NCBI RefSeq assembly: GCF_000699445.3
Contig: NC_067202.1
Location: forward strand, 13,421,924-13,485,923
Length of the DNA: 64,000 bases
Reading direction: 5' to 3'
From: Schistosoma haematobium
Taxonomy: Eukaryota > Platyhelminthes > Trematoda > Strigeidida > Schistosomatidae
The position numbers and the translations under genes are program-made. Below the pieces are notes generated by a model. That model was not told the origin of the DNA. It worked only from the letters and a program-made list of their open reading frames with translations, and searched no databases. Below are positions 939-50,234 of this stretch, piece after piece (the stretch's first letter is position 1; each line of letters begins with the position of its first letter).

Positions 939-3900
939 CTGAATCGACTGCGATTTGCTCAGAAGTGTGAGACGGTATTTCCGATGCTGTATAACAGAAA
1001 TAAATTGAAGAAGATGTGGTGAGGAAGGAGGTGAGTAAATGCCGTGAATATGCTAGTTTTGTGAATGAGTTGATTCGTTCACTCATCATGTGTACAAAAT
1101 TAGTATTGAGGTTAGTTAGTTGAAGTCAGTGCAACATAGTGAATCAGTTGGAAATTGCACGTCACTCCTAACGAATGACCATTACTAAGAGGTATGGAGG
1201 ACACGAGTCTCCGAGTGTTTTGACCATGTTCAGTGTAGCGATAATCGTGTGAAGCGGTTTCCGGTTGATGTTGTTGTTGTTTATGATGATATTGTTGTTG
1301 TTGTTGTTGTTGTTGAATCAGTGATATTTCCAGTATTGTCTGTCATCTGACGACACTGGCATGATATTGGTTTTCGCCAAACGGGCTTTTCACCTTGAAG
1401 TGACTAATGTTATCCATATGAGAATGATGCATTCCTCTGGTTTCCAGCATTAAACACTGGTCAAGTAATTGTAAATACTCCACCACTGTGGGTGGATGGA
1501 TGGATGGATGGATGAATACATAAGTGCCTATGTGCATGTGTATATTGAATCAATGTGAGATTCGGGAAGGAAGAGCTGTAGTGGACTGCTGATGCAACTG
1601 AAGTAAGTGAAGTGGCTTTCTCATTGCCAGTTACAGTTCGTCAACTCAGTGTTCACGTTCATGCATCAAGTGATTTGGTAAATAAGAATGACTGACATGA
1701 CAGAATTATAATTTGTAGCAATATAATTGGTGGATGAAATACGCAACCACACTCTGTAACTCGAAATGGTCGTGCATGAATGACGGTGTGACGATACGAC
1801 TGACAGACACAAGTGTTTTATTCGTGGCGAGTCATGGAACAATGTCTGAGGACGGGAGATGCACTCCTTCACCATCAAGTGTACACATCAATGAAACAAC
1901 CTCAACCAACCATACATTATCCAGTTGCACTTGCAAACAACGCAGTATTCGAAAATCAGTCAGATGAACGATTTGAAAATGCAAAAGACAGTGACACTGT
2001 GATCTGACTGCAGTGATGTCGATGTCAATGTTTCAAGAGAACACTGAATGAATGTTGGTGAAATGTGAATGGAGTTGTGTCAGTGAAATATCTGTGTGAT
2101 TGATTGATTGATTTATTGATTGATTGCTTGATTGACTGATTGATGTTGGCAATGAAGTTGTTCTATGAAAATAGATGAGTTCGTTGTACTGAAAGTGTTT
2201 ACGTAGTTTGAGGTAGGTTTCACTTGCCATTCTGGTTTCATGGGAATGAGCTTGAACATGGAGGCATGTCACAACGGATCAACATCTTTATCATTTGTGA
2301 AATTCATCGTGTTTCCGTAATCAATACTCACCTGAATCGACTGCGATTTGCTCAGAAGTGTGAGACGGTATTTCCGATGCTGTATAACAGAAATAAATTG
2401 AAGAAGATGTGGTGAGGAAGGAGGTGAGTAAATGCCGTGAATATGCTAGTTTTGTGAATGAGTTGATTCGTTCACTCATCATGTGTACAAAATTAGTATT
2501 GAGGTTAGTTAGTTGAAGTCAGTGCAACATAGTGAATCAGTTGGAAATTGCACGTCACTCCTAACGAATGACCATTACTAAGAGGTATGGAGGACACGAG
2601 TCTCCGAGTGTTTTGACCATGTTCAGTGTAGCGATAATCGTGTGAAGCGGTTTCCGGTTGATGTTGTTGTTGTTTATGATGATATTGTTGTTGTTGTTGT
2701 TGTTGTTGAATCAGTGATATTTCCAGTATTGTCTGTCATCTGACGACACTGGCATGATATTGGTTTTCGCCAAACGGGCTTTTCACCTTGAAGTGACTAA
2801 TGTTATCCATATGAGAATGATGCATTCCTCTGGTTTCCAGCATTAAACACTGGTCAAGTAATTGCAAATACTCCACCACTGTGGGTGGATGGATGGATGG
2901 ATGGATGAATACATAAGTGCCTATGTGCATGTGTATATTGAATCAATGTGAGATTCGGGAAGGAAGAGCTGTAGTGGACTGCTGATGCAACTGAAGTAAG
3001 TGAAGTGGCTTTCTCATTGCCAGTTACAGTTCGTCAACTCAGTGTTCACGTTCATGCATCAAGTGATTTGGTAAATAAGAATGACTGACATGACAGAATT
3101 ATAATTTGTAGCAATATAATTGGTGGATGAAATACGCAACCACACTCTGTAACTCGAAATGGTCGTGCATGAATGACGGTGTGACGATACGACTGACAGA
3201 CACAAGTGTTTTATTCGTGGCGAGTCATGGAACAATGTCTGAGGACGGGAGATGCACTCCTTCACCATCAAGTGTACACATCAATGAAACAACCTCAACC
3301 AACCATACATTATCCAGTTGCACTTGCAAACAACGCAGTATTCGAAAATCAGTCAGATGAACGATTTGAAAATGCAAAAGACAGTGACACTGTGATCTGA
3401 CTGCAGTGATGTCGATGTCAATGTTTCAAGAGAACACTGAATGAATGTTGGTGAAATGTGAATGGAGTTGTGTCAGTGAAATATCTGTGTGATTGATTGA
3501 TTGATTGATAGATTGCTTGATTGACTGATTGATGTTGGCAATGAAGTTGTTCTATGAAAATAGATGAGTTCGTTGTACTGAAAGTGTTTACGCAGTTTGA
3601 GGTAGGTTTCACTTGCCATTCTGGTTTCATGGGAATGAGCTTGAACATGGAGGCATGTCACAACGGATCAACATCTTTATCATTTGTGAAATTCATCGTG
3701 TTTCCGTAATCAATACTCACCTGAATCGACTGCGATTTGCTCAGAAGTGTGAGACGGTATTTCCGATGCTGTATAACAGAAATAAATTGAAGAAGATGTG
3801 GTGAGGAAGGAGGTGAGTAAATGCCGTGAATATGCTAGTTTTGTGAATGAGTTGATTCGTTCACTCATCATGTGTACAAAATTAGTATTGAGGTTAGTTA

Positions 3901-6839
3901 GTTGAAGTCAGTGCAACATAGTGAATCAGTTGGAAATTGCACGTCACTCCTAACGAATGACCATTACTAAGAGGTATGGAGGACACGAGTCTCCGAGTGT
4001 TTTGACCATGTTCAGTGTAGCGATAATCGTGTGAAGCGGTTTCCGGTTGTTGTTGATGATGATGTTGTTGTTTTTGTTGTTGTTGTTGTTGGATGCAGTG
4101 CTATTTCCAGTATTGTCTGTCATCTGACGACACTGGCATGATATTGGTTTTCGCCAAACGGGCTTTTCACCTTGAAGTGACTAATGTTATCCATATGAGA
4201 ATGATGCATTCCTCTGGTTTCCAGCATTAAACACTGGTCAAGTAATTGCAAATACTCCACCACTGTGGGTGGATGGATGGATGGATGGATGAATACATAA
4301 GTGCCTATGTGCATGTGTATATTGAATCAATGTGAGATTCGGGAAGGAAGAGCTGTAGTGGACTGCTGATGCAACTGAAGTAAGTGAAGTGGCTTTCTCA
4401 TTGCCAGTTACAGTTCGTCAACTCAGTGTTCACGTTCATGCATCAAGTGATTTGGTAAATAAGAATGACTGACATGACAGAATTATAATTTGTAGCAATA
4501 TAATTGGTGGATGAAATACGCAACCACACTCTGTAACTCGAAATGGTCGTGCATGAATGACGGTGTGACGATACGACTGACAGACACAAGTGTTTTATTC
4601 GTGGCGAGTCATGGAACAATGTCTGAGGACGGGAGATGCACTCCTTCACCATCAAGTGTACACATCAATGAAACAACCTCAACCAACCATACATTATCCA
4701 GTTGCACTTGCAAACAACGCAGTATTCGAAAGTCAGTCAGATGAACGATTTGAAAATGCAAAAGACAGTGACACTGTGATCTGACTGCAGTGATGTCGAT
4801 GTCAATGTTTCAAGAGAACACTGAATGAATGTTGGTGAAATGTGAATGGAGTTGTGTCAGTGAAATATCTGTGTGATTGATTGATTGATTTATTGATTGA
4901 TTGCTTGATTGACTGATTGATGTTGGCAATGAAGTTGTTCTATGAAAATAGATGAGTTCGTTGTACTGAAAGTGTTTACGTAGTTTGAGGTAGGTTTCAC
5001 TTGCCATTCTGGTTTCATGGGAATGAGCTTGAACATGGAGGCATGTCACAACGGATCAACATCTTTATCATTTGTGAAATTCATCGTGTTTCCGTAATCA
5101 ATACTCACCTGAATCGACTGCGATTTGCTCAGAAGTGTGAGACGGTATTTCCGATGCTGTATAACAGAAATAAATTGAAGAAGATGTGGTGAGGAAGGAG
5201 GTGAGTAAATGCCGTGAATATGCTAGTTTTGTGAATGAGTTGATTCGTTCACTCATCATGTGTACAAAATTAGTATTGAGGTTAGTTAGTTGAAGTCAGT
5301 GCAACATAGTGAATCAGTTGGAAATTGCACGTCACTCCTAACGAATGACCATTACTAAGAGGTATGGAGGACACGAGTCTCCGAGTGTTTTGACCATGTT
5401 CAGTGTAGCGATAATCGTGTGAAGCGGTTTCCGGTTGATGTTGTTGTTGTTTATGATGATATTGTTGTTGTTGTTGTTGTTGTTGAATCAGTGATATTTC
5501 CAGTATTGTCTGTCATCTGACGACACTGGCATGATATTGGTTTTCGCCAAACGGGCTTTTCACCTTGAAGTGACTAATGTTATCCATATGAGAATGATGC
5601 ATTCCTCTGGTTTCCAGCATTAAACACTGGTCAAGTAATTGCAAATACTCCACCACTGTGGGTGGATGGATGGATGGATGGATGAATACATAAGTGCCTA
5701 TGTGCATGTGTATATTGAATCAATGTGAGATTCGGGAAGGAAGAGCTGTAGTGGACTGCTGATGCAACTGAAGTAAGTGAAGTGGCTTTCTCATTGCCAG
5801 TTACAGTTCGTCAACTCAGTGTTCACGTTCATGCATCAAGTGATTTGGTAAATAAGAATGACTGACATGACAGAATTATAATTTGTAGCAATATAATTGG
5901 TGGATGAAATACGCAACCACACTCTGTAACTCGAAATGGTCGTGCATGAATGACGGTGTGACGATACGACTGACAGACACAAGTGTTTTATTCGTGGCGA
6001 GTCATGGAACAATGTCTGAGGACGGGAGATGCACTCCTTCACCATCAAGTGTACACATCAATGAAACAACCTCAACCAACCATACATTATCCAGTTGCAC
6101 TTGCAAACAACGCAGTATTCGAAAATCAGTCAGATGAACGATTTGAAAATGCAAAAGACAGTGACACTGTGATCTGACTGCAGTGATGTCGATGTCAATG
6201 TTTCAAGAGAACACTGAATGAATGTTGGTGAAATGTGAATGGAGTTGTGTCAGTGAAATATCTGTGTGATTGATTGATTGATTGATAGATTGCTTGATTG
6301 ACTGATTGATGTTGGCAATGAAGTTGTTCTATGAAAATAGATGAGTTCGTTGTACTGAAAGTGTTTACGCAGTTTGAGGTAGGTTTCACTTGCCATTCTG
6401 GTTTCATGGGAATGAGCTTGAACATGGAGGCATGTCACAACGGATCAACATCTTTATCATTTGTGAAATTCATCGTGTTTCCGTAATCAATACTCACCTG
6501 AATCGACTGCGATTTGCTCAGAAGTGTGAGACGGTATTTCCGATGCTGTATAACAGAAATAAATTGAAGAAGATGTGGTGAGGAAGGAGGTGAGTAAATG
6601 CCGTGAATATGCTAGTTTTGTGAATGAGTTGATTCGTTCACTCATCATGTGTACAAAATTAGTATTGAGGTTAGTTAGTTGAAGTCAGTGCAACATAGTG
6701 AATCAGTTGGAAATTGCACGTCACTCCTAACGAATGACCATTACTAAGAGGTATGGAGGACACGAGTCTCCGAGTGTTTTGACCATGTTCAGTGTAGCGA
6801 TAATCGTGTGAAGCGGGTTTCGGTTGTTGTTGTTGATGA

Positions 6840-6870
<31 letters not shown>

Positions 6871-9800
6871 GAATCAGTGCTATTTCCAGTATTGTCTGTC
6901 ATCTGACGACACTGGCATGATATTGGTTTTCGCCAAACAGGCTTTTCACCTTGAAGTGACTAATGTTATCCATATGAGAATGATGCATTCCTCTGGTTTC
7001 CAGCATTAAACACTGGTCGAGTAATTCCAACTACTCCACCACTGTCGGTGGATGGATGGATGGATTGATGAATGGGTGGATGGATGGATGGATGGATGGA
7101 TGGATTGATGGATGGATGGATGGAAACATAAGTGCCTATGTGCATGTGTATATTGAATCAATGTGAGATTCGGGAAGGAAGAGCTGTAGTGGACTGCTGA
7201 TGCAACTGAAGTAAGTGAAGTGGCTTTCTCATTGCCAGTTACAGTTCGTCAACTCAGTGTTCACGTTCATGCATCAAGTGATTTGGTAAATAAGAATGAC
7301 TGACATGACAGAATTATAATTTGTAGCAATATAATTGGTGGATGAAATACGCAACCACACTCTGTAACTCGAAATGGTCGTGCATGAATGACGGTGTGAC
7401 GATACGACTGACAGACACAAGTGTTTTATTCGTGGCGAGTCATGGAACAATGTCTGAGGACGGGAGATGCACTCCTTCACCATCAAGTGTACACATCAAT
7501 GAAACAACCTCAACCAACCATACATTATCCAGTTGCACTTGCAAACAACGCAGTATTCGAAAATCAGTCAGATGAACGATTTGAAAATGCAAAAGACAGT
7601 GACACTGTGATCTGACTGCAGTGATGTCGATGTCAATGTTTCAAGAGAACACTGAATGAATGTTGGTGAAATATGAATGGAGTTGTGTCAGTGAAATATC
7701 TGTGTGATTGATTGATTGATTTATTGATTGATTGCTTGATTGACTGATTGATGTTGGCAATGAAGTTGTTCTATGAAAATAGATGAGTTCGTTGTACTGA
7801 AAGTGTTTACGTAGTTTGAGGTAGGTTTCACTTGCCATTCTGGTTTCATGGGAATGAGCTTGAACATGGAGGCATGTCACAACGGATCAACATCTTTATC
7901 ATTTGTGAAATTCATCGTGTTTCCGTAATCAATACTCACCTGAATCGACTGCGATTTGCTCAGAAGTGTGAGACGGTATTTCCGATGCTGTATAACAGAA
8001 ATAAATTGAAGAAGATGTGGTGAGGAAGGAGGTGAGTAAATGCCGTGAATATGCTAGTTTTGTGAATGAGTTGATTCGTTCACTCATCATGTGTACAAAA
8101 TTAGTATTGAGGTTAGTTAGTTGAAGTCAGTGCAACATAGTGAATCAGTTGGAAATTGCACGTCACTCCTAACGAATGACCATTACTAAGAGGTATGGAG
8201 GACACGAGTCTCCGAGTGTTTTGACCATGTTCAGTGTAGCGATAATCGTGTGAAGCGGTTTCCGGTTGATGTTGTTGTTGTTTATGATGATATTGTTGTT
8301 GTTGTTGTTGTTGTTGAATCAGTGATATTTCCAGTATTGTCTGTCATCTGACGACACTGGCATGATATTGGTTTTCGCCAAACGGGCTTTTCACCTTGAA
8401 GTGACTAATGTTATCCATATAAGAATGATGCATTCCTCTGGTTTCCAGCATTAAACACTGGTCAAGTAATTGCAAATACTCCACCACTGTGGGTGGATGG
8501 ATGGATGGATGGATGAATACATAAGTGCCTATGTGCATGTGTATATTGAATCAATGTGAGATTCGGGAAGGAAGAGCTGTAGTGGACTGCTGATGCAACT
8601 GAAGTAAGTGAAGTGGCTTTCTCATTGCCAGTTACAGTTCGTCAACTCAGTGTTCACGTTCATGCATCAAGTGATTTGGTAAATAAGAATGACTGACATG
8701 ACAGAATTATAATTTGTAGCAATATAATTGGTGGATGAAATACGCAACCACACTCTGTAACTCGAAATGGTCGTGCATGAATGACGGTGTGACGATACGA
8801 CTGACAGACACAAGTGTTTTATTCGTGGCGAGTCATGGAACAATGTCTGAGGACGGGAGATGCACTCCTTCACCATCAAGTGTACACATCAATGAAACAA
8901 CCTCAACCAACCATACATTATCCAGTTGCACTTGCAAACAACGCAGTATTCGAAAATCAGTCAGATGAACGATTTGAAAATGCAAAAGACAGTGACACTG
9001 TGATCTGACTGCAGTGATGTCGATGTCAATGTTTCAAGAGAACACTGAATGAATGTTGGTGAAATGTGAATGGAGTTGTGTCAGTGAAATATCTGTGTGA
9101 TTGATTGATTGATTGATAGATTGCTTGATTGACTGATTGATGTTGGCAATGAAGTTGTTCTATGAAAATAGATGAGTTCGTTGTACTGAAAGTGTTTACG
9201 TAGTTTGAGGTAGGTTTCACTTGCCATTCTGGTTTCATGGGAATGAGCTTGAACATGGAGGCATGTCACAACGGATCAACATCTTTATCATTTGTGAAAT
9301 TCATCGTGTTTCCGTAATCAATACTCACCTGAATCGACTGCGATTTGCTCAGAAGTGTGAGACGGTATTTCCGATGCTGTATAACAGAAATAAATTGAAG
9401 AAGATGTGGTGAGGAAGGAGGTGAGTAAATGCCGTGAATATGCTAGTTTTGTGAATGAGTTGATTCGTTCACTCATCATGTGTACAAAATTAGTATTGAG
9501 GTTAGTTAGTTGAAGTCAGTGCAACATAGTGAATCAGTTGGAAATTGCACGTCACTCCTAACGAATGACCATTACTAAGAGGTATGGAGGACACGAGTCT
9601 CCGAGTGTTTTGACCATGTTCAGTGTAGCGATAATCGTGTGAAGCGGTTTCCGGTTGATGTTGTTGTTGTTTATGATGATATTGTTGTTGTTGTTGTTGT
9701 TGTTGAATCAGTGATATTTCCAGTATTGTCTGTCATCTGACGACACTGGCATGATATTGGTTTTCGCCAAACGGGCTTTTCACCTTGAAGTGACTAATGT

Positions 9801-12800
9801 TATCCATATAAGAATGATGCATTCCTCTGGTTTCCAGCATTAAACACTGGTCAAGTAATTGCAAATACTCCACCACTGTGGGTGGATGGATGGATGGATG
9901 GATGAATACATAAGTGCCTATGTGCATGTGTATATTGAATCAATGTGAGATTCGGGAAGGAAGAGCTGTAGTGGACTGCTGATGCAACTGAAGTAAGTGA
10001 AGTGGCTTTCTCATTGCCAGTTACAGTTCGTCAACTCAGTGTTCACGTTCATGCATCAAGTGATTTGGTAAATAAGAATGACTGACATGACAGAATTATA
10101 ATTTGTAGCAATATAATTGGTGGATGAAATACGCAACCACACTCTGTAACTCGAAATGGTCGTGCATGAATGACGGTGTGACGATACGACTGACAGACAC
10201 AAGTGTTTTATTCGTGGCGAGTCATGGAACAATGTCTGAGGACGGGAGATGCACTCCTTCACCATCAAGTGTACACATCAATGAAACAACCTCAACCAAC
10301 CATACATTATCCAGTTGCACTTGCAAACAACGCAGTATTCGAAAATCAGTCAGATGAACGATTTGAAAATGCAAAAGACAGTGACACTGTGATCTGACTG
10401 CAGTGATGTCGATGTCAATGTTTCAAGAGAACACTGAATGAATGTTGGTGAAATGTGAATGGAGTTGTGTCAGTGAAATATCTGTGTGATTGATTGATTG
10501 ATAGATTGCTTGATTGACTGATTGATGTTGGCAATGAAGTTGTTCTATGAAAATAGATGAGTTCGTTGTACTGAAAGTGTTTACGTAGTTTGAGGTAGGT
10601 TTCACTTGCCATTCTGGTTTCATGGGAATGAGCTTGAACATGGAGGCATGTCACAACGGATCAACATCTTTATCATTTGTGAAATTCATCGTGTTTCCGT
10701 AATCAATACTCACCTGAATCGACTGCGATTTGCTCAGAAGTGTGAGACGGTATTTCCGATGCTGTATAACAGAAATAAATTGAAGAAGATGTGGTGAGGA
10801 AGGAGGTGAGTAAATGCCGTGAATATGCTAGTTTTGTGAATGAGTTGATTCGTTCACTCATCATGTGTACAAAATTAGTATTGAGGTTAGTTAGTTGAAG
10901 TCAGTGCAACATAGTGAATCAGTTGGAAATTGCACGTCACTCCTAACGAATGACCATTACTAAGAGGTATGGAGGACACGAGTCTCCGAGTGTTTTGACC
11001 ATGTTCAGTGTAGCGATAATCGTGTGAAGCGGTTTCCGGTTGATGTTGTTGTTGTTTATGATGATATTGTTGTTGTTGTTGTTGTTGAATCAGTGCTATT
11101 TCCAGTATTGTCTGTCATCTGACGACACTGGCATGATATTGGTTTTCGCCAAACGGGCTTTTCACCTTGAAGTGACTAATGTTATCCATATGAGAATGAT
11201 GCATTCCTCTGGTTTCCAGCATTAAACACTGGTCAAGTAATTGCAAATACTCCACCACTGTGGGTGGATGGATGGATGGATGGATGAATACATAAGTGCC
11301 TATGTGCATGTGTATATTGAATCAATGTGAGATTCGGGAAGGAAGAGCTGTAGTGGACTGCTGATCCAACTGAAGTAAGTGAAGTGGCTTTCTCATTGCC
11401 AGTTACAGTTCGTCAACTCAGTGTTCACGTTCATGCATCAAGTGATTTGGTAAATAAGAATGACTGACATGACAGAATTATAATTTGTAGCAATATAATT
11501 GGTGGATGAAATACGCAACCACACTCTGTAACTCGAAATGGTCGTGCATGAATGACGGTGTGACGATACGACTGACAGACACAAGTGTTTTATTCGTGGC
11601 GAGTCATGGAACAATGTCTGAGGACGGGAGATGCACTCCTTCACCATCAAGTGTACACATCAATGAAACAACCTCAACCAACCATACATTATCCAGTTGC
11701 ACTTGCAAACAACGCAGTATTCGAAAATCAGTCAGATGAACGATTTGAAAATGCAAAAGACAGTGACACTGTGATCTAACTGCAGTGATGTCGATGTCAA
11801 TGTTTCAAGAGAACACTGAATGAATGTTGGTGAAATGTGAATGGAGTTGTGTCAGTGAAATATCTGTGTGATTGATTGATTGATAGATTGCTTGATTGAC
11901 TGATTGATGTTGGCAATGAAGTTGTTCTATGAAAATAGATGAGTTCGTTGTACTGAAAGTGTTTACGTAGTTTGAGGTAGGTTTCACTTGCCATTCTGGT
12001 TTCATGGGAATGAGCTTGAACATGGAGGCATGTCACAACGGATCAACATCTTTATCATTTGTGAAATTCATCGTGTTTCCGTAATCAATACTCACCTGAA
12101 TCGACTGCGATTTGCTCAGAAGTGTGAGACGGTATTTCCGATGCTGTATAACAGAAATAAATTGAAGAAGATGTGGTGAGGAAGGAGGTGAGTAAATGCC
12201 GTGAATATGCTAGTTTTGTGAATGAGTTGATTCGTTCACTCATCATGTGTACAAAATTAGTATTGAGGTTAGTTAGTTGAAGTCAGTGCAACATAGTGAA
12301 TCAGTTGGAAATTGCACGTCACTCCTAACGAATGACCATTACTAAGAGGTATGGAGGACACGAGTCTCCGAGTGTTTTGACCATGTTCAGTGTAGCGATA
12401 ATCGTGTGAAGCGGTTTCCGGTTGATGTTGTTGTTGTTTATGATGATATTGTTGTTGTTGTTGTTGTTGTTGTTGAATCAGTGATATTTCCAGTATTGTC
12501 TGTCATCTGACGACACTGGCATGATATTGGTTTTCGCCAAACGGGCTTTTCACCTTGAAGTGACTAATGTTATCCATATGAGAATGATGCATTCCTCTGG
12601 TTTCCAGCATTAAACACTGGTCAAGTAATTGCAAATACTCCACCACTGTGGGTGGATGGATGGATGGATGAATGAATACATAAGTGCCTATGTGCATGTG
12701 TATATTGAATCAATGTGAGATTCGGGAAGGAAGAGCTGTAGTGGACTGCTGATGCAACTGAAGTAAGTGAAGTGGATTTCTCATTTTCAGTTACAGTTCG

Positions 12801-14921
12801 TCAACTCAGTGTTCACGTTCATGCATCAAGTGATTTGGTAAATAAGAATGACTGACATGACAGAATTATAATTTGTAGCAATATAATTGGTGGATGAAAT
12901 ACGCAACCACACTCTGTAACTCGAAATGGTCGTGCATGAATGACGGTGTGACGATACGACTGACAGACACAAGTGTTTTATTCGTGGCGAGTCATGGAAC
13001 AATGTCTGAGGACGGGAGATGCACTCCTTCACCATCAAGTGTACACATCAATGAAACAACCTCAACCAACCATACATTATCCAGTTGCACTTGCAAACAA
13101 CGCAGTTCTCGAAAATCAGTCAGATGAACGATTTGAAAATGCAAAAGACAGTGACACTGTGATCTGACTGCAGTGATGTCGATGTCAATGTTTCAAGAGA
13201 ACACTGAATGAATGTTGGTGAAATATGAATGGAGTTGTGTCAGTGAAATATCTGTGTGATTGATTGATTGATAGATTGCTTGATTGACTGATTGATGTTG
13301 GCAATGAAGTTGTTCTATGAAAATAGATGAGTTCGTTGTACTGAAAGTGTTTACGTAGTTTGAGGTAGGTTTCACTTGCCATTCTGGTTTCATGGGAATG
13401 AGCTTGAACATGGAGGCATGTCACAACGGATCAACATCTTTATCATTTGTGAAATTCATCGTGTTTCCGTAATCAATACTCACCTGAATCGACTGCGATT
13501 TGCTCAGAAGTGTGAGACGGTATTTCCGATGCTGTATAACAGAAATAAATTGAAGAAGATGTGGTGAGGAAGGAGGTGAGTAAATGCCGTGAATATGCTA
13601 GTTTTGTGAATGAGTTGATTCATTCACTCATCATGTGTACAAAATTAGTATTGAGGTTAGTTAGTTGAAGTCAGTGCAACATAGTGAATCAGTTGGAAAT
13701 TGCACGTCGCTCCTAACGAATGACCATTACTAAGAGGTATGGAGGACACGAGTCTCCAAGTGTTTTGACCATGTTCAGTGTAGCGATAATCGTGTGAAGC
13801 GGTTTCCGGTTGATGTTGTTGTTGTTTATGATGATATTGTTGTTGTTGTTGTTGTTGTTGGATGCAGTGCTATTTCCAGTATTGTCTGTCATCTGACGAC
13901 ACTGGCATGATATTGGTTTTCGCCAAACGGGCTTTTCACCTTGAAGTGACTAATGTTATCCATATGAGAATGATGCATTCCTCTGGTTTCCAGCATTAAA
14001 CACTGGTCAAGTAATTGCAAATACTCCACCACTGTGGGTGGATGGATGGATGGATGAATGAATACATAAGTACTTATGCGCATGTGTATATTGAATCAAT
14101 GTGAGATTCGGGAAGGAAGAGCTGTAGTGGACTGCTGATGCAACTGAAGTAAGTGAAGTGGATTTCTCATTTTCAGTTACAGTTCGTCAACTCAGTGTTC
14201 ACGTTCATGCATCAAGTGATTTGGTAAATAAGAATGACTGACATGACAGAATTATAATTTGTAGCAATATAATTGGTGGATGAAATACGCAACCACACTC
14301 TGTAACTCGAAATGGTCGTGCATGAATGACGGTGTGACGATACGACTGACAGACACAAGTGTTTTATTCGTGGCGAGTCATGGAACAATGTCTGAGGACG
14401 GGAGATGCACTCCTTCACCATCAAGTGTACACATCAATGAAACAACCTCAACCAACCATACATTATCCAGTTGCACTTGCAAACAACGCAGTATTCGAAA
14501 ATCAGTCAGATGAACGATTTGAAAATGCAAAAGACAGTGACACTGTGATCTGACTGCAGTGATGTCGATGTCAATGTTTCAAGAGAACACTGAATGAATG
14601 TTGGTGAAATGTGAATGGAGTTGTGTCAGTGAAATATCTGTGTGATTGATTGATTGATTGATAGATTGCTTGATTGACTGATTGATGTTGGCAATGAAGT
14701 TGTTCTATGAAAATAGATGAGTTCGTTGTACTGAAAGTGTTTACGCAGTTTGAGGTAGGTTTCACTTGCCATTCTGGTTTCATGGGAATGAGCTTGAACA
14801 TGGAGGCATGTCACAACGGATCAACATCTTTATCATTTGTGAAATTCATCGTGTTTCCGTAATCAATACTCACCTGAATCGACTGCGATTTGCTCAGAAG
14901 TGTGAGACGGTATTTCCGATG
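939..14921 (-). CDS. Tail of eleven identical 48 nt exons (E8), one per 1.39 kb monomer
   Basis: Exons at 14874-14921, 13484-13531, 12096-12143, 10714-10761, 9329-9376, 7940-7987, 6498-6545, 5109-5156, 3721-3768, 2332-2379 and 939-986. Each follows a long pyrimidine-rich acceptor ending TTCTGTTATACAG and ends TTCAG|GTGAGTATTG, a near-perfect donor. In phase 1 it reads [16 protein letters not shown] (the first Ala spans the junction), with no stop. Being 48 nt and phase 1-1, any number of copies can be joined in frame. The peptide is rich in Ser, Thr, Glu and Gln, so an extended, possibly O-glycosylated stalk or mucin-like repeat is plausible. The 192 bp around the exon give the same translation on the opposite strand in all 14 monomers. 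The array continues past the left edge, so the copy number is a minimum. Confidence 0.68.
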
Positions 14922-26900: not shown

Positions 26901-29900
26901 GTAAATAATAATGACTGACATGACAGAATTATAATTTGTAGCAATATAATTGGTGGATGAAATACGCAACCACACTCTGTAACTCGAAATGGTCGTGCAT
27001 GAATGACGGTGTGACGATACGACTGACAGACACAATTCTATAGTTCGTGACGTTTCATTCAACTTATAATGCTTTCACTATTATTGCGTGAGATCTACAT
27101 TTTGATAAATATTCGTTACCGGTCTTCTTTTAATTCATGTCGTTTTGACATTAACCCTTCTAGACTTTAATTTCGTTTTCTCACCTGTGCTTTGGACGTT
27201 CCTTCGTTCGTTGCTCTTATTCCACACTGAAGTTTTGTCTGGTAAACAATAAATAGAGACATACATTTTTAAAATCGGTTATGTGACCTAATGCTTCAGA
27301 TTGATATAATGAACATTTTAGTCTCACAGCAACTGTGACGTTTTCGTACCCAATATTTTAAGATTAGTCATGAATCAGTTTCAACATTAATCTCCTATAT
27401 GTACTGAATCGTTTAATGAACTTACATTTGGCTTCATTTACTAAAAACAATGAAAACAATATAGTGACTCGGTTTGTATTATGTTGAAAATTCGGTTGAA
27501 CAGAAACACAATACACGGATGGGGATATTGATCATTCTCAAATCTTTTCAAATGTTTACCGATATTCACATGTTTCAATTGGGAGCTATTTCACCTAGAC
27601 TCTGTACAACATCAAACAACTTCTGATTTCGTGATGTACCTACATTAAAACACAACTCATTGATCCACAGAACATACTTCAAATGCATTGTCACCGTGTG
27701 TTTAGGTAGAATGAACTAGTTGTCTTGCAGTCATCAAACTTTCAGGAAGGTAGTAACTGAACAAAACATATTTTGTGCTTAAAATATAATCAAGAAACTC
27801 ACATTCATGGCATTTTCATTTGATACCAATGTGAAAAAGTTTCGAAAACAAACAGTTTATTAGATAGTTGACAATGGAATGTCGAATTCATAAACTTGAG
27901 CTCAACAGAGCCCAATGAAACAGTTTACTCGTGGGATCGATTTCAATCTGCCGTTCCTCCAGCTTAGACCCTATGTTCTCAGTACGTGTAATTCATCACT
28001 GTCGCGTCCTGGCTGACTTTACGAACATCATGTGTTGAGATGAACAGAGTCAATGTGACATGTATGTGGACCAGTGGTTATCATATCTGCGAAAGTTTGC
28101 AATGATTCACGTCAGTCATTATTGCCATAATGTGGTCTTCGGTATAGATGAACAACAAATGACTCTAGTCATGACGTAGCAAAAATTTGAGTATTGAGAT
28201 AAGGCACATTCATATAGAGAAATGGTCAAAACTCATTTAAATTACTTCGCGACGCCAGAAGCATGAAGTCAATTGGAAGTAAGGGTTTGTCTAATGATTT
28301 CATCAAACAGCCATGATCACATTGCTTCATCACATGCGAAAACGCGAAGTCAGAAGAAATATCGAGATCTATCGGACCAGCACTTCTATTCTAGTTATAC
28401 ATTATAACTATGTCAACTATATCAACACCGCCAGTGAACTGTGACTACGCGATTATGCAAATGACTGTCAGTGAATAAGTTTGATATCTCTGTAATGGCA
28501 GGCACTGTTAGCTGACGTTGGAACAATATTCTTCGAAACGTACGCGTGAATCACATTTGGCAAATCAGTAGTGAACATTGTTAACCATCTTGATAGATAT
28601 TCTTTTTAAATTTGTCGACTGATAAACATGAGCAATGTCATCGCATGTGTGCACATCTCTCAACTTCCACAACCTAGTTTGCTAGAAAAACCTTGCAATG
28701 CATAAGAAACATAAAGAAAATGTTACCCATCGTCGGTAGAGAGAAACGGTTCCCATGTCTGTTGAACAGAATGAAAACTTCTTCCATTCCTTCTTCTGTT
28801 TGGAAGTCGTTCATATAATACTCAACTTGATCGCCCGAGATGATATACATCTGTAGTTGTTGTGTCGAATATCCTCTGAATACAATGGTCGAATCAGTTG
28901 TCTCACAAGCTGATCTTTCTCTTTTCCACCTCAGAAGTGGATTCACATTTTGCACCAACTGCATTTGAACATTCTCGATTCTCGGAACTAGGAAAAATGA
29001 GACGAACAATGAGAGCACAAAATGAATGCACTGTGACATTGTCACTGTTGATGAACACAGATACTGGATAGTTAGCCTATCAAACGCAGTAGTATTGTGG
29101 CTTTGTTACAACGTATCCAGAGGCTGACATTCATCACAAGAATATCAACGGAATTCTCCACAGCACTTATGATCTTCATAATGTCAATATATAACTCGAA
29201 TGTTCCACAACTGTAATGAAAATGGAACAGATATTGAAAGTATGATTGTTTGGTAACAGTTCGGAAACAACTTACTTCTTTTGTACGTCATGTCATAGGT
29301 CTGGAACTTGGAATAAAAGAAGTTTGTGTTGTAGCCTTCTGCACGATGATTTGTAACTTCACATGGTTGGCCAATAGCTTCTAATAAACCTATATTGCCT
29401 TCATAAACTCTCACCGTTTCATCGGGCCAAAAGTATACGTCTTGAACCAAACAGACATAATCGAAATTTTCGTGGGTCATTGGTTTCCATTCAAAAGCCA
29501 TGGCTGTAGTCTGCTCCTGAATTACGCGAAACGTGTTCGTATTTGTATTGCCTGTTTGGAAACGGAAACACTTCAAATTTAGAGCTTTATCAAGGTGCAA
29601 TCAATTTATTAGGAATGACTGCTTATCCGATGCGATGACATTCATAGCACTGAAACTTGAATTCCTGTATTCGATAAGCTGATGGTCAGTTAACATCATA
29701 TATGTTTTCTTTTGTGTAATTACCTGAGCATATTGATACAAGTCCGTTTTACAGAGTGTACTGTTTTGATTGGACAACATTAGGATAAACGTATGTTGGA
29801 TCAGTTTCTGCAAGTTACGATGCACATCAGAAAATAATACTTCGATTATATGTATTTAAAAACACAAATAAGCGCAAAATTGCTCAGCTGGAGATCATTC

Positions 29901-32900
29901 TAATTTTTCTGATCACCTCAGTATAAACTACAGGCAGATGAGTGCACGCAGAGATCCGTTATAGCAGAAAAGTGAATAGTGATACATGTGATACAATGTC
30001 TCACGTATCATCCTCGATGTGGATTATCAATTGGGTTGAACATAGTCCCCTCAATTACCTATGATGTGCATTCAGATCAGGTTTGTTATACCTCGACGTT
30101 ATTCAGTGTCTATCGAGTACTGGTTTACGTAGGCAACGAGTAACATAATCATGTGCACTCGAAAATGCACGCTGACCAGCATTCGAACACGTTTCTGAAC
30201 GAATGGAATTAGGTGACATCATTAACTGTGGGAACAAATATGATGTCTCTAACTCTGTCGACAAGGTCACTTGCTCAATGTTGTGCTAAATATTTTGTGG
30301 TGCCAAGAAACTTTGTCCCTTACTTACTTGGTCTGATTTTAAATAGGTCTTCGTAATGCCCTGCCTTTATGTAGTCGAATATACTTGTTATCTTAAGTTT
30401 GTCAGTGAGATTGAAAAATACTAACGGAAAAATGCAACACAGTTAGCGGATTTACCAATATTTGGTGAATTTCAGTCCAGCTTACACGTGACTGTAGCGC
30501 TGATGATACTGGAATATCAAGTTACTTTAAGACAATGCACCAGAAATGCACACATGTGAATGGTGGTATCGGTTCTGAGGAATGAACTGTTTTCTGTCCA
30601 GTTATACACATCAACAAACTTCAGAAAATGCTTTTATAAAACGTCTTCATTTGATTCACGGAGTAAGTGCGTCACCGAATACTATCGATTTCTAGATGTA
30701 ACTCTTGGTAGGAATCTGTGTCCATTTGCAATTGATTTACACACTATAGATGTCATTTGAACAGACTTTTTAACCGCTCGATGGTTTAGTCTGGTGATGT
30801 CACGAACAATGTACCTAGTGGTGAATTCTTCGTTTAACTAGTGAAATAAACTTCCGCTTGTGCAGCCCCAACCAACCTACAATAATTTCTCTATTCTTCG
30901 TTATCATGGGATTAACAAAAATTAATTATGATACGAATAGAGATCGAACGTTCGATAAACGTGGTTGTTTAGAGAGAACAAAAGCGAATGCTGATACTGA
31001 GAAGATTATAACTCAATAGTTATTCATAATCATACTGATCATACTCACTTCCGACCATATTAGTTTCCAGGTATGCAGGTTCATACTGTCCATTCACCAT
31101 GTATTGTGAGGCGAATACCGATGGCATTAGCAAAAGAAAAACAGAAACAGCAAACAATTATGGGAATAAAATAAATAACCAAATCAGCGTTCTTCGTAAA
31201 CTCGTGAAAGAAAAATTTATTTTTCGTAAGTAAATACATTCAAAGATAGGACTAACAGACAAAAGTGTTTTATTCGTGGAGAGTCATGGAACAATGTCTG
31301 AGGACGGGAGATGCACTCCTTCACCATCAAGTGTACACATCAATGAAACAACCTCAACCAACCATACATTATCCAGTTGCACTTGCAAACAACGCAGTAT
31401 TCGAAAATCAGTCAGATGAACGATTTGAAAATGCAAAAGACAGTGACACTGTGATCTGACTGCAGTGATGTCGATGTCAATGTTTCAAGAGAACACTGAA
31501 TGAATGTTGGTGAAATATGAATGGAGTTGTGTCAGTGAAATATCTGTGTGATTGATTGATTGATTTATTGATAGATTGCTTGATTGACTGATTGATGTTG
31601 GCAATGAAGTTGTTCTATGAAAATAGATGAGTTCGTTGTACTGAAAGTGTTTACGTAGTTTGAGGTAGGTTTCACTTGCCATTCTGGTTTCATGGGAATG
31701 AGCTTGAACATGGAGGCATGTCACAACGGATCAACATCTTTATCATTTGTGAAATTCATCGTGTTTCCGTAATCAATACTCACCTGAATCGACTGCGATT
31801 TGCTCAGAAGTGTGAGACGGTATTTCCGATGCTGTATAACAGAAATAAATTGAAGAAGATGTGGTGAGGAAGGAGGTGAGTAAATGCCGTGAATATGCTA
31901 GTTTTGTGAATGAGTTGATTCGTTCACTCATCATGTGTACAAAATTAGTATTGAGGTTAGTTAGTTGAAGTCAGTGCAACATAGTGAATCAGTTGGAAAT
32001 TGCACGTCACTCCTAACGAATGACCATTACTAAGAGGTATGGAGGACACGAGTCTCCGAGTGTTTTGACCATGTTCAGTGTAGCGATAATCGTGTGAAGC
32101 GGTTTCCGGTTGATGTTGTTGTTGTTTTTGATGATGTTGTTGTTTTTGTTGTTGTTGTTGGATGCAGTGCTATTTTCAGTATTGTCTGTCATCTGACGAC
32201 ACTGGCATGATATTGGTTTTCGCCAAACGGGCTTTTCACCTTGAAGTGACTAATGTTATCCATATGAGAATGATGCATTCCTCTGGTTTCCAGCATTAAA
32301 CACTGGTCAAGTAATTCCAACTACTCCACCACTGTATGTGGATGGATGGATGGATTGATGGATGGATGGATGGATGGATGAATACATAAGTGCCTATGTG
32401 CATGTGTATATTGAATCAATGTGAGATTCGGGAAGGAAGAGCTGTAGTGGACTGCTGATGCAACTGAAGTAAGTGAAGTGGCTTTCTCATTGCCAGTTAC
32501 AGTTCGTCAACTCAGTGTTCACGTTCATGCATCAAGTGATTTGGTAAATAAGAATGACTGACATGACAGAATTATAATTTGTAGCAATATAATTGGTGGA
32601 TGAAATACGCAACCACACTCTGTAACTCGAAATGGTCGTGCATGAATGACGGTGTGACGATACGACTGACAGACACAATTCTATAGTTCGTGACGTTTCA
32701 TTCAACTTATAATGCTTTCACTATTATTGCGTGAGATCTACATTTTGATAAATATTCGTTACCGGTCTTCTTTTAATTCATGTCGTTTTGACATTAACCC
32801 TTCTAGACTTTAATTTCGTTTTCTCACCTGTGCTTTGGACGTTCCTTCGTTCGTTGCTCTTATTCCACACTGAAGTTTTGTCTGGTAAACAATAAATAGA

Positions 32901-35900
32901 GACATACATTTTTAAAATCGGTTATGTGACCTAATGCTTCAGATTGATATAATGAACATTTTAGTCTCACAGCAACTGTGACGTTTTCGTACCCAATATT
33001 TTAAGATTAGTCATGAATCAGTTTCAACATTAATCTCCTATATGTACTGAATCGTTTAATGAACTTACATTTGGCTTCATTTACTAAAAACAATGAAAAC
33101 AATATAGTGACTCGGTTTGTATTATGTTGAAAATTCGGTTGAACAGAAACACAATACACGGATGGGGATATTGATCATTCTCAAATCTTTTCAAATGTTT
33201 ACCGATATTCACATGTTTCAATTGGGAGCTATTTCACCTAGACTCTGTACAACATCAAACAACTTCTGATTTCGTGATGTACCTACATTAAAACACAACT
33301 CATTGATCCACAGAACATACTTCAAATGCATTGTCACCGTGTGTTTAGGTAGAATGAACTAGTTGTCTTGCAGTCATCAAACTTTCAGGAAGGTAGTAAC
33401 TGAACAAAACATATTTTGTGCTTAAAATATAATCAAGAAACTCACATTCATGGCATTTTCATTTGATACCAATGTGAAAAAGTTTCGAAAACAAACAGTT
33501 TATTAGATAGTTGACAATGGAATGTCGAATTCATAAACTTGAGCTCAACAGAGCCCAATGAAACAGTTTACTCGTGGGATCGATTTCAATCTGCCGTTCC
33601 TCCAGCTTAGACCCTATGTTCTCAGTACGTGTAATTCATCACTGTCGCGTCCTGGCTGACTTTACGAACATCATGTGTTGAGATGAACAGAGTCAATGTG
33701 ACATGTATGTGGACCAGTGGTTATCATATCTGCGAAAGTTTGCAATGATTCACGTCAGTCATTATTGCCATAATGTGGTCTTCGGTATAGATGAACAACA
33801 AATGACTCTAGTCATGACGTAGCAAAAATTTGAGTATTGAGATAAGGCACATTCATATAGAGAAATGGTCAAAACTCATTTAAATTACTTCGCGACGCCA
33901 GAAGCATGAAGTCAATTGGAAGTAAGGGTTTGTCTAATGATTTCATCAAACAGCCATGATCACATTGCTTCATCACATGCGAAAACGCGAAGTCAGAAGA
34001 AATATCGAGATCTATCGGACCAGCACTTCTATTCTAGTTATACATTATAACTATGTCAACTATATCAACACCGCCAGTGAACTGTGACTACGCGATTATG
34101 CAAATGACTGTCAGTGAATAAGTTTGATATCTCTGTAATGGCAGGCACTGTTAGCTGACGTTGGAACAATATTCTTCGAAACGTACGCGTGAATCACATT
34201 TGGCAAATCAGTAGTGAACATTGTTAACCATCTTGATAGATATTCTTTTTAAATTTGTCGACTGATAAACATGAGCAATGTCATCGCATGTGTGCACATC
34301 TCTCAACTTCCACAACCTAGTTTGCTAGAAAAACCTTGCAATGCATAAGAAACATAAAGAAAATGTTACCCATCGTCGGTAGAGAGAAACGGTTCCCATG
34401 TCTGTTGAACAGAATGAAAACTTCTTCCATTCCTTCTTCTGTTTGGAAGTCGTTCATATAATACTCAACTTGATCGCCCGAGATGATATACATCTGTAGT
34501 TGTTGTGTCGAATATCCTCTGAATACAATGGTCGAATCAGTTGTCTCACAGGCTGATCTTTCTCTTTTCCACCTCAGAAGTGGATTCACATTTTGCACCA
34601 ACTGCATTTGAACATTCTCGATTCTCGGAACTAGGAAAAAATGAGACGAACAATGAGAGCACAAAATGAATGCACTGTGACATTGTCACTGTTGATGAAC
34701 ACAGATACTGGATAGTTAGCCTATCAAACGCAGTAGTATTGTGGCTTTGTTACAACGTATCCAGAGGCTGACATTCATCACAAGAATATCAACGGAATTC
34801 TCCACAGCACTTATGATCTTCATAATGTCAATATATAACTCGAATGTTCCACAACTGTAATGAAAATGGAACAGATATTGAAAGTATGATTGTTTGGTAA
34901 CAGTTCGGAAACAACTTACTTCTTTTGTACGTCATGTCATAGGTCTGGAACTTGGAATAAAAGAAGTTTGTGTTGTAGCCTTCTGCACGATGATTTGTAA
35001 CTTCACATGGTTGGCCAATAGCTTCTAATAAACCTATATTGCCTTCATAAACTCTCACCGTTTCATCGGGCCAAAAGTATACGTCTTGAACCAAACAGAC
35101 ATAATCGAAATTTCCGTGGGTCATTGGTTTCCATTCAAAAGCCATGGCTGTAGTCTGCTCCTGAATTACGCGAAACGTGTTCGTATTTGTATTGCCTGTT
35201 TGGAAACGGAAACACTTCAAATTTAGAGCTTTATCAAGGTGCAATCAATTTATTAGGAATGACTGCTTATCCGATGCGATGACATTCATAGCACTGAAAC
35301 TTGAATTCCTGTATTCGATAAGCTGATGGTCAGTTAACATCATATATGTTTTCTTTTGTGTAATTACCTGAGCATATTGATACAAGTCCGTTTTACAGAG
35401 TGTACTGTTTTGATTGGACAACATTAGGATAAACGTATGTTGGATCAGTTTCTGCAAGTTACGATGCACATCAGAAAATAATACTTCGATTATATGTATT
35501 TAAAAACACAAATAAGCGCAAAATTGCTCAGCTGGAGATCATTCTAATTTTTCTGATCACCTCAGTATAAACTACAGGCAGATGAGTGCACGCAGAGATC
35601 CGTTATAGCAGAAAAGTGAATAGTGATACATGTGATACAATGTCTCACGTATCATCCTCGATGTGGATTATCAATTGGGTTGAACATAGTCCCCCTCAAT
35701 TACCTATGATGTGCATTCAGATCAGGTTTGTTATACCTCGACGTTATTCAGTGTCTATCGAGTACTGGTTTACGTAGGCAACGAGTAACATAATCATGTG
35801 CACTCGAAAATGCACGCTGACCAGCATTCGAACACGTTTCTGAACGAATGGAATTAGGTGACATCATTAACTGTGGGAACAAATATGATGTCTCTAACTC

Positions 35901-37386
35901 TGTCGACAAGGTCACTTGCTCAATGTTGTGCTAAATATTTTGTGGTGCCAAGAAACTTTGTCCCTTACTTACTTGGTCTGATTTTAAATAGGTCTTCGTA
36001 ATGCCCTGCCTTTATGTAGTCGAATATACTTGTTATCTTAAGTTTGTCAGTGAGATTGAAAAATACTAACGGAAAAATGCAACACAGTTAGCGGATTTAC
36101 CAATATTTGGTGAATTTCAGTCCAGCTTACACGTGACTGTAGCGCTGATGATACTGGAATATCAAGTTACTTTAAGACAATGCACCAGAAATGCACACAT
36201 GTGAATGGTGGTATCGGTTCTGAGGAATGAACTGTTTTCTGTCCAGTTATACACATCGACAAACTTCAGAAAATGCTTTTATAAAACGTCTTCATTTGAT
36301 TCACGGAGTAAGTGCGTCACTGAATACTATCGATTTCTAGATGTAACTCTTGGTAGGAATCTGTGTCCATTTGCAATTGATTTACACACTATAGATGTCA
36401 TTTGAACAGACTTTTTAACCGCTCGATGGTTTAGTCTGGTGATGTCACGAACAATGTACCTAGTGGTGAATTCTTCGTTTAACTAGTGAAATAAACTTCC
36501 GCTTGTGCAGCCCCAACCAACCTACAATAATTTCTCTATTCTTCGTTATCATGGGATTAACAAAAATTAATTATGATACGAATAGAGATCGAACGTTCGA
36601 TAAACGTGGTTGTTTAGAGAGAACAAAAGCGAATGCTGATACTGAGAAGATTATAACTCAATAGTTATTCATAATCATACTGATCATACTCACTTCCGAC
36701 CATATTAGTTTCCAGGTATGCAGGTTCATACTGTCCATTCACCATGTATTGTGAGGCGAATGCTGATGGTTTTGGCAAAAGAGCAAGAGAAATATGAAAC
36801 ACTTTTTGGAAGGGAACAAGAAGTAACTGGGATTTTGGTATTTCTGTGCCTAATTTTTGCGGTGTTTTGTTATAATACTTGCAACTACCTCTTTCGTTCT
36901 TTAATAATTTTTATTTTAGCATCGTTGCTTTGCAATTCCTTGAGCTGACTCTGCTTCTCTACTGCTGTTAATTTGTTGACTTACATAAAAGTATCTACTT
37001 CATAAATCGTATGAAAGTCGAGGGATTTTATATTGACGTTACTCACAGTGTTGTTACAAATGACAGTCGTCTGGTTTTAAATTGCTCACATTTATACAGG
37101 GTGTGGGTCAATGGTTCAAATTAAAAAACTTTGGTGATTTGTTGGACAAATGAATCGGTGTCCATCGATTAACTTCATATATCTCAACATCGCAGGCAGA
37201 CAATGCAGAAATGCATTAGTACGCTTAGTTCGAGCATTTTTTCTGGGTGACTTCATTCAATTATCATATTGTTTTCCCTTATGTTTTTTATTTTTCACCA
37301 TCAATGTTCAGATAAAATTCTATAGAATATAACTCACCCATCACCACTGCAAATAAAATGGAAATGTGTTCGTTGGATCGTATCAT
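939..37386 (-). CDS. Giant modular secreted-protein gene, all exons phase 1-1, 3' end beyond window
   Basis: The proposed gene reads right to left: signal-peptide exon 37338-37386, then four blocks of seven exons (69, 93, 66, 276, 261, 15, 54 nt), each followed by a 48 nt exon, then ten further 48 nt exons out to 939. I derived it from splice motifs. Each internal exon is a multiple of three, enters and leaves in phase 1 and is open in that phase; several (69, 276 and 261 nt) are open in no other phase. In-window coding totals 4057 nt, about 1352 codons plus one base, with no stop. Each module has five cysteines and NLT and NKS sequons. The 276+261 nt exons encode a compact region containing [23 protein letters not shown] and [11 protein letters not shown]. 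From memory this recalls the Schistosoma egg protein CP391S-like (plexin/nidogen-like) family, which is unverified. Alternative: the blocks are separate or pseudogenised copies rather than one transcript. Confidence 0.7.
7049..7125. repeat. Expanded GGAT microsatellite in one monomer
   Basis: Every monomer carries three simple repeats inside what would be intron: a GGAT run (for example near 1490-1516), a GATT run (near 700-755) and a TTG run (near 1270-1316). In the copy spanning 5983-7420 the GGAT run is expanded and interrupted (GGATT, GGGT variants), which accounts for that copy's 1438 bp length. A related longer GGAT/GATT run occurs in the single monomers at about 21052-21095, 26695-26738 and 32338-32381. 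Confidence 0.9.
15900..19834 (-). CDS. Module 1 (3'-most): exons E1-E7, feeding the E8 tail
   Basis: Exons: E1 19766-19834 (acceptor CATCAG intact), E2 19045-19137, E3 18846-18911, E4 17993-18268, E5 17443-17703, E6 16141-16155, E7 15900-15953. E7 (54 nt) encodes a basic polar stretch, [18 protein letters not shown], and leaves one G, which with CA of the next 48 nt exon at 14921 makes Ala. E4 joins E3 as CL|R|NTNTNTF, and E5 follows E4 as YKR|I|PRIENVQ. If the E5 donor (ATGG|GTAACA) were ignored, the frame would run into a hydrophobic stretch and a TAG at 17390, an alternative short end. Further 3' exons must lie in or beyond the monomer array to the left. Confidence 0.66.
18441..18524 (-). 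other. Candidate 84 nt cassette exon with a stop in the gene's phase
   Basis: Between E3 and E4 lies an 84 nt segment bounded by an acceptor-like CTTGCAG and a donor-like CTCAG|GTAATT. Its length is a multiple of three, but in phase 1 it hits TAA after about 18 codons; it is open only in phase 0, which does not fit E3 or E4. It recurs in all blocks (24081-24164, 29724-29807 and 35368-35451). It may be a decayed exon, a stop-containing alternative exon, or chance. Confidence 0.25.
20497..25474 (-). CDS. Module 2: exons E1-E8, E1 acceptor broken
   Basis: Exons: E1 25406-25474 (probably skipped), E2 24685-24777, E3 24486-24551, E4 23633-23908, E5 23083-23343, E6 21782-21796, E7 21541-21594, E8 20497-20544. 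As in module 3, the base change at the E1 acceptor gives CATCGG, removing the AG. All other splice sites match module 4. The acceptor tract of the 15 nt micro-exon E6 has one T fewer than in module 1. I noticed no amino-acid difference from modules 1 and 3 in the two large exons E4 and E5. Confidence 0.65.
26141..31117 (-). CDS. Module 3: exons E1-E8, E1 acceptor broken
   Basis: Exons: E1 31049-31117 (probably skipped), E2 30328-30420, E3 30129-30194, E4 29276-29551, E5 28727-28987, E6 27426-27440, E7 27185-27238, E8 26141-26188. The coding sequence is almost identical to the other modules; one synonymous change (GCC to GCT, Ala) lies in E5. The acceptor before E1 reads CATCGG instead of CATCAG, so E1 has no AG. 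Skipping it joins E8 of module 4 to E2 in the same phase, because E1 is 69 nt and symmetric. The intron pyrimidine tract before E5 is one base shorter than in the other copies, which lengthens a chance upstream open frame but does not touch the exon. Confidence 0.65.
31784..36762 (-). CDS. Module 4 (5'-most): exons E1-E8
   Basis: Exons: E1 36694-36762, E2 35973-36065, E3 35774-35839, E4 34920-35195, E5 34370-34630, E6 33069-33083, E7 32828-32881, E8 31784-31831. Most donors are GTAAGT, GTGAGT or GTGAGA (E3 GTAAAC, E5 GTAACA); acceptors follow pyrimidine tracts, several with a CTAAC/CTAAT branch-like motif. E1 gives [20 protein letters not shown]2 contains the NLT sequon and [18 protein letters not shown]3 has TCSNAG and DYVTRCL; E6 is a 15 nt micro-exon giving VNEAK with its flanking bases. 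Its E1 acceptor is intact (CAG) and is preceded by unique intron leading to the signal exon. This copy carries one missense change in E4 (Glu to Gly in the MTHENF segment). Module length is 278 residues plus the 16-residue E8 peptide. Confidence 0.68.
37338..37386 (-). CDS. First coding exon: start codon and signal-peptide core
   Basis: The ATG (37384-37386 on the minus strand) has A at -3 and opens [16 protein letters not shown], then one base G before a strong donor (GATGG|GTGAGTT). Splicing to the first repeated exon at 36762 (acceptor CATCAG) completes GCA and reads AFAS then QYMVNG. The result is a short polar n-region, a hydrophobic core of about 12 residues and a small-residue cleavage site near FAS|Q. 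This exon lies just outside the repeated DNA and occurs once, which fits a single promoter driving all downstream modules. In the leftmost three blocks the base pair after the acceptor is TA instead of CA, which would give Val. Confidence 0.72.
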
Positions 37387-48600: not shown

Positions 48601-48694
48601 TATAACAAAAATCTTCAAAACACGATTTGTGATGATATAATGTTCATTTGCACATGCCGAAAAAGTAGTTGCAAATTTTGCATCAGTTTATTGA

Positions 48695-50225: not shown

Positions 50226-50234
50226 GTTTCTTCC

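Follow-up and report, generated by a model that had tools for sequence, protein, structure and literature searches.

Two nested tiers of repeated exons on the minus strand of a Schistosoma haematobium locus, most likely parts of one gene

A 64,000 nucleotide (nt) stretch of Schistosoma haematobium DNA (assembly GCF_000699445.3, contig NC_067202.1, positions 13,421,924 to 13,485,923; hereafter the window) carries on its minus strand a start exon, a series of tandem six-exon modules and an array of one short exon, E8; a single gene with repeated exons is the most likely reading (probability about 0.6). The product would likely be a secreted or surface protein of a family so far seen in Schistosoma only, and a single transcript would be expected to run across the whole locus. 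A single haplotype was analysed, as DNA rather than RNA.

In the direction of the minus strand, the start exon (E1) is followed by four tandem units of 5.64 kilobases (kb), spanning approximately 36.8 to 14.9 kb of the window, and then by ten further copies of the 48 nt E8 in units of about 1.39 kb (1,382-1,442 base pairs (bp)), which continue to the start of the window. The window start cuts the gene, whose 3' end lies outside. E1 carries an ATG and the beginning of a signal-like peptide and ends in phase 1 with the donor gtgagt, while E2 completes this peptide and continues into a linker. The peptide has been judged by N-terminal alignment with related proteins (designated P0001 and onward). 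Each of the four modules comprises E2 (69 nt), E4 (276 nt), E5 (261 nt), E6 (15 nt), E7 (54 nt) and E8 (48 nt), summing to 723 nt or 241 codons, and E1, the modules and the E8 array together amount to 3,421 nt, or about 1,140 codons. The repeated exons supported after E1 number 34, and all have a length that is a multiple of three, phase 1-1 and an open frame. The microsatellites detected are TGAT, GTT and TGGA. The features are as follows.

37424..37430, minus: TATA-like run 38-44 nt upstream of the ATG, seen by eye, without control
37338..37386, minus: E1, single-copy start exon, 49 nt; similar signal-like N-termini of P0004, P0005, P0007, P0008, P0010 and P0015 align with it
31118..36762, minus: module 1, 5.64 kb, E2 E4 E5 E6 E7 E8
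25475..31117, minus: module 2
19835..25474, minus: module 3
14874..19834, minus: module 4, terminating in the first array-type E8 unit
36694..36762, minus: E2 of module 1, 69 nt, acceptor AG
31049..31117, minus: E2 of module 2, acceptor dinucleotide GG
25406..25474, minus: E2 of module 3, acceptor dinucleotide GG
19766..19834, minus: E2 of module 4, acceptor AG
34920..35195, minus: E4 of module 1, 276 nt, predicted fibronectin-III-like (FnIII-like) domain
29276..29551, minus: E4 of module 2
23633..23908, minus: E4 of module 3
17993..18268, minus: E4 of module 4
34370..34630, minus: E5 of module 1, 261 nt, predicted second beta domain, which one model out of two shows as FnIII-like
28727..28987, minus: E5 of module 2
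23083..23343, minus: E5 of module 3
17443..17703, minus: E5 of module 4
33069..33083, minus: E6 of module 1, 15 nt micro-exon, the weakest exon
27426..27440, minus: E6 of module 2
21782..21796, minus: E6 of module 3
16141..16155, minus: E6 of module 4
32828..32881, minus: E7 of module 1, 54 nt
27185..27238, minus: E7 of module 2
21541..21594, minus: E7 of module 3
15900..15953, minus: E7 of module 4
31784..31831, minus: E8 of module 1, 48 nt, 16-residue repeat
26141..26188, minus: E8 of module 2
20497..20544, minus: E8 of module 3
14874..14921, minus: E8 of module 4, with array-type flanks
13484..13531, minus: E8 array copy 1
12096..12143, minus: E8 array copy 2
10714..10761, minus: E8 array copy 3
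9329..9376, minus: E8 array copy 4
7940..7987, minus: E8 array copy 5
6498..6545, minus: E8 array copy 6
5109..5156, minus: E8 array copy 7
3721..3768, minus: E8 array copy 8
2332..2379, minus: E8 array copy 9
939..986, minus: E8 array copy 10
1..14921, minus: array of approximately 1.39 kb E8 units, extending past the window start

A search for related proteins, restricted to 159-505 amino acids (aa) and E <= 0.01, recovered 21 relatives of 195-411 aa, mostly with one module, all labelled as Schistosoma (mansoni, rodhaini, margrebowiei, haematobium, mattheei, bovis, intercalatum, spindalis and turkestanicum). The family includes Smp_166710 and Smp_166720, and has the exon order E1-E2-E4-E5-E7 and conserved residues in common with the locus, the similarity extending over both core domains. 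Identity to the locus is 58-69% for nine of the ten aligned members and 43% for P0018, the closest being P0003 from S. margrebowiei (69%). Of the translated matches, 20 cover E5 of module 1, with 15 starting and nine stopping at the exon border, and 23 cover E4, with 14 starting and 12 stopping at its border; the remaining ones stop short or overrun into introns, through which some of the models read. Comparison with the relatives settles the large exons. E6 is the least certain exon, since P0004, P0006 and P0008, three of the ten aligned relatives, show only the residues AK at its site. The E2 motif is present in 16 of the 21 relatives and missing from five, and a pattern match in 15 and inspection by eye in P0005 show that all 16 pass directly from E2 into E4, so that an extra exon between the two, for which 93 nt and 66 nt candidates pass the exon filter described below, has been dropped. 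Searches of the literature, from which subscription papers and preprints fell outside, returned no paper mentioning Smp_166700, Smp_166710, Smp_166720 or Smp_166730. Upstream of E1 on the minus strand, positions 37781-37861 show a 67% match to residues 29-55 of Smp_166720 (P0020), perhaps as a conserved upstream exon or as promoter sequence read into the P0020 model.

Donors read gtga or gtaa in all copies, and acceptors read AG in all except E2 of modules 2 and 3 (GG; two of 34). The flanks of these two copies, when read by eye, contained no other nearby AG that keeps the frame open, and for this reason skipping of E2 in both modules, which is frame-neutral, is the simplest outcome. Internal E2 copies would then be dispensable, E2 being the exon that completes the signal-like peptide. 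A fixed filter for candidate exons, which asked for an AG, a pyrimidine tract, a donor pattern and an open phase 1-1 segment of 9-300 nt, returned 11 candidates on the minus strand of module 2. The plus strand gave five, and 200 dinucleotide shuffles gave 3.9 +/- 2.4, with a maximum of 13. The 11 consist of five proposed exons (E4-E8), three candidates nested in E4 or E5 and three that are unsupported, and the bare count is not decisive against the shuffles. Candidates of at least 225 nt occurred twice in the same sequence in 1 of 200 shuffles, and once or more in 5 of 200. Small exons are unproven by this filter, E8 not being significant, as a candidate arises in 51.5% of shuffled 1.39 kb units. 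E8 is identical in 14 of 14 copies, a weak sign of constraint because 42% of 48-column windows are equally free of substitutions in an alignment of ten units from the module 4 E8 onward.

Three further candidates were also considered. A 55 nt candidate exon at 35451-35397 was discarded as not being a multiple of three, and an E6-like 15-mer at 43079-43065 as lacking splice sites. A second open 48 nt segment of phase 1-1 at 31702-31655, 129 nt past the start of E8, passes the filter and is unsupported by the relatives; the other two of the three units scanned, module 2 (26059-26012) and an array unit, contain the same segment.

Evidence that the modules and E8 units follow one another in the same order elsewhere has come from gene models. 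An E8-like peptide runs into E2 in P0003 (S. margrebowiei) and in P0006 and P0009 (S. haematobium), the latter two being identical over their first 218 residues and perhaps derived from one locus. A search with a profile of the E8 array, in which the 7,993 candidates with the most words in common were scored, identified P0022 from S. margrebowiei (E 1.1e-8), with two differing E8 peptides in succession. Its other rows were P0006 (E 0.3) and the metagenome protein P0023 (20% identity, E 0.044), which looks unrelated. P0003 and P0022 begin within the intron preceding E8 and look like automatic predictions, and as such are good evidence for genomic order and weaker evidence for splicing. In S. 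mansoni, P0001 and P0002 each hold two E2-E4 stretches, and their sequences overlap. The E7-E8 junction was seen in no relative model. The intron directly before E8 (1074-988, minus strand, with the same site in each E8 unit) shares 26 of 29 residues with the S. margrebowiei models, although the likeness of E4 to P0003 reaches only about 73%; this intron may be more conserved than the domain exon. P0017 from S. turkestanicum shows a piece of the first domain repeated before an entire E2-E4-E5 module, and duplication of domains may thus be recurrent in the family.

An earlier note on this DNA, made from the sequence alone, had anticipated much of this structure. The single-copy start exon with ATG and signal peptide was located at 37386-37338, its peptide being signal-like; the four repeats sharing a 48 nt exon correspond to the 5.64 kb units, with E8 in each; and the long run of that exon was followed through ten more copies down to 986-939. 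Its description of the repeated exons as multiples of three, of phase 1-1 and open holds for all 34 that are supported, and relatives from other species back its exon-intron reading and in-frame logic. The numbers given there had to be reduced: seven exons plus the 48 nt exon per repeat became six exons in all, since the 16 relatives with an E2 motif go straight into E4; 42 exons after the first became 34; the 278-residue module became 241 codons; and about 1350 codons without a stop became approximately 1,140. Splice consensus, claimed for all exons, is found at every donor and at 32 of 34 acceptors, but not at E2 of modules 2 and 3.

The copies are closely alike. Leaving gaps out of account, any two modules show 0-3 differences over the 723 exon positions and 4-16 over the 4,234-4,920 positions outside exons, and modules 1 and 2 differ at 7 of 5,643 aligned positions. 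Such near-identity might raise the suspicion that the copy numbers are an assembly artefact, the repeat having been collapsed or over-expanded; this is very improbable, as the ten aligned units show 38 substitution columns and range from 1,382 to 1,442 bp, and the tandem layout recurs in the models of other species. Around E8, likeness is 99.6-99.9% among modules 1-3, 97.9-99.9% among array units A1-A10 and 95.6-96.7% between the two groups. Modules 1-3 and array units A1-A9 (A10 unused) differ by fixed states at 60 alignment columns. Upstream of E8 there are 24 of these, 20 of them within a single indel; the downstream columns fall for the most part beyond the join where the two unit types cease to be the same sequence. 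The flanks of E8 in module 4 carry the array state at 60 of 60 columns. This within-group likeness, the fixed columns and the array-type flanks of module 4 indicate that the two tiers have been homogenised separately. As regards their origin, the module repeat starts at E2, where the sequence preceding E2 in module 1 (after E1) is unlike that in modules 2-4 (after E8). The join of the array unit resembles, over 15-20 bp, two imperfectly similar stretches located downstream and upstream of E8 in the module, which suggests that the 1.39 kb unit was founded by one recombination between them.

Several points weigh against the reading of the locus as one gene with its modules and E8 units expressed in series. 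Some concern splicing and length. Phase 1-1 makes exon skipping frame-neutral, two E2 acceptors lack AG, the relatives reach only 195-411 aa within the range searched, and a multi-module query of 819 residues, scored against the 7,996 candidates with the most words in common, brought up no relative in the range of 450-1,433 aa. It is accordingly conceivable, though fairly unlikely, that the gene is real but that its messenger RNAs (mRNAs) use E1, one or two modules and few E8 copies, the array being mainly an optional splicing reservoir. A precedent has been described in SjCP1531, where two of five tandem copies are used. Nevertheless, donors and all remaining acceptors are intact in every copy, gene models of two species join E8 to E2 or E8 to E8, and the length of the relatives is weak evidence because automatic models shorten repeat genes. 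Other points concern the copies themselves. Exon and non-exon differences are alike and too few, so that selection among the copies cannot be shown, and the overlaps between P0006 and P0009 and between P0001 and P0002 leave fewer independent loci, which has lowered confidence. Together with the loss of the E2 acceptor in two copies and the near-identity around E8 in modules 1-3, the lack of demonstrable selection would suit a recent partial duplication of a single-module gene, which would make the E8 array and the added modules satellite DNA without function, their frames open only because they are young or homogenised. This is improbable, given the E8-E2 and E8-E8 successions in S. margrebowiei models and E8-E2 in those of S. 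haematobium, all with diverged peptides, as well as the two E2-E4 stretches in S. mansoni models; the same layout with diverged peptides implies that this arrangement predates the copies now present.

A single gene with repeated exons remains the favoured explanation, and structure modelling has given some indication of what they would encode. E4 is predicted to encode an FnIII-like domain and E5, less surely, a second FnIII-like beta domain. Matches to the two-sheet, seven-strand FnIII fold were consistent but came from low-confidence models, and the E5 domain was obtained in one of two. No sequence match to Pfam fn3 was listed at E <= 1, and Pfam searches of 11 members gave sub-threshold matches only (best E 0.028, none in more than two of the 11). 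No match was found by sequence search of PDB, or in Rfam at the gathering threshold. Names carried by uniref entries (sortilin-related receptor, DOMON, Pur_ac_phosph_N and others) were set aside, being without Pfam support here. Assignment to the plexin domain-containing (CP391S-like) cluster was likewise rejected: the S. mansoni subtelomeric family so renamed has a CxWC motif (PMC10900676), and this motif occurs in none of the 21 relatives, nor was a PSI family among the Pfam matches of the 11 members at E <= 1. A C-terminal membrane-type helix is found in P0004, P0008 and P0018, and this tail had no match among the window parts listed.

The locus has been compared with known systems as these are described in the available excerpts of the papers cited. 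The mucin-type gene family SmPoMuc of S. mansoni has a 27 nt exon 2 which, with its flanking introns, forms tandem repeats of about 1 kb in up to 20 copies, more than 93% alike, a likeness attributed to concerted evolution; its transcripts hold 1 to 100 repeats, and GA-rich tracts separate the genomic repeats (PMC2576457). The resemblance is one of layout, a short exon and its flanking intron being tandemly amplified inside a schistosome gene, which here is likely to be a single gene. In SmPoMuc, however, the 27 nt exon alone repeats, in units of about 1 kb with GA-rich tracts, whereas here a 48 nt exon repeats in units of about 1.39 kb and a six-exon module of 5.64 kb containing the same exon is also in tandem. 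Human LPA KIV-2 consists of 5.6 kb in-frame units, made up of exons and large introns, with two exons per domain, in 1 to approximately 40 copies, which encode up to 70% of one protein and are known to vary in copy number (PMC11462820). At the sequence level, both are highly alike in-frame exon-intron tandem units of nearly equal length, but with six exons per module here and an unrelated protein; a second, nested single-exon array does not feature in that excerpt. In SjCP1531, an egg-protein locus of S. japonicum, there are five tandem copies of similar exons, two being used in the mRNA (PMC3434034). This likewise represents exon repetition in a schistosome locus, with no nested second array in the excerpted description. 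Short symmetric exons, long introns and a signal-like peptide are shared with MEGs (PMC4350168, PMC10526429), and exon phases are symmetric in all 34 repeated exons. In MEGs, however, the coding region is mostly made of very small symmetric exons (PMC4350168), unlike this locus, where the two large exons E4 and E5 (276 + 261 nt) hold 537 of the 723 coding nt per module; MEG membership has therefore been rejected. The earlier note knew of no description of modules and a micro-exon both amplified in satellite-like DNA. The micro-exon tier has a precedent in SmPoMuc exon 2 and the module tier in the LPA units. The two nested in a schistosome gene were not found among the papers listed by the literature searches, as judged by titles and abstract openings, with subscription papers and preprints outside. 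The nesting of two tiers within a probable single gene sets the locus apart as a new variant of coding tandem repeats.

According to the proposed mechanism, transcription would begin once, at E1, and introns would be removed throughout. Because all repeated exons share phase 1-1, modules or E8 units could be kept, gained, lost or skipped without loss of frame. The predicted product consists of a signal peptide, up to four FnIII-like pairs with short linkers and a run of 16-residue repeats, the E8 array probably forming a stalk, with a membrane anchor probably encoded beyond the window, as in P0004, P0008 and P0018. Copy number would likely shift by unequal recombination between near-identical introns, and the E8 unit itself was apparently born by recombination at the 15-20 bp imperfect match. 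It may be proposed, tentatively, that the two satellites, nested in one gene and homogenised separately, act as a length engine driven by recombination, through which the reach of the stalk and the number of binding domains (FnIII-like pairs) of a parasite surface protein could vary independently between worms, every length or skipped-exon state remaining readable. Satellite-like arrays are easily masked, and annotation fragments the genes inside them, as the partial models of the relatives suggest. If a single gene is indeed read here, coding satellites exist in schistosomes, and the Smp_166710-type family becomes a candidate length-polymorphic surface protein whose copy number is measurable in populations.

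Other repeats have been detected elsewhere in the window. Two 300 nt direct repeats (48684-48983 and 50224-50523), 98% alike and 1,540 bases apart, are possibly the ends of a mobile element, and a GTCA microsatellite (49419-49507) sits between them. Dispersed repeat copies at 48139-48480 and 62320-62668 are 85-87% alike and lie approximately 14.2 kb apart. Inverted repeat arms of 211 nt, at 42052-42262 and 43129-43339, are 92% complementary and separated by 866 nt, with an outer inverted pair around them at 41968-42055 and 44231-44318.
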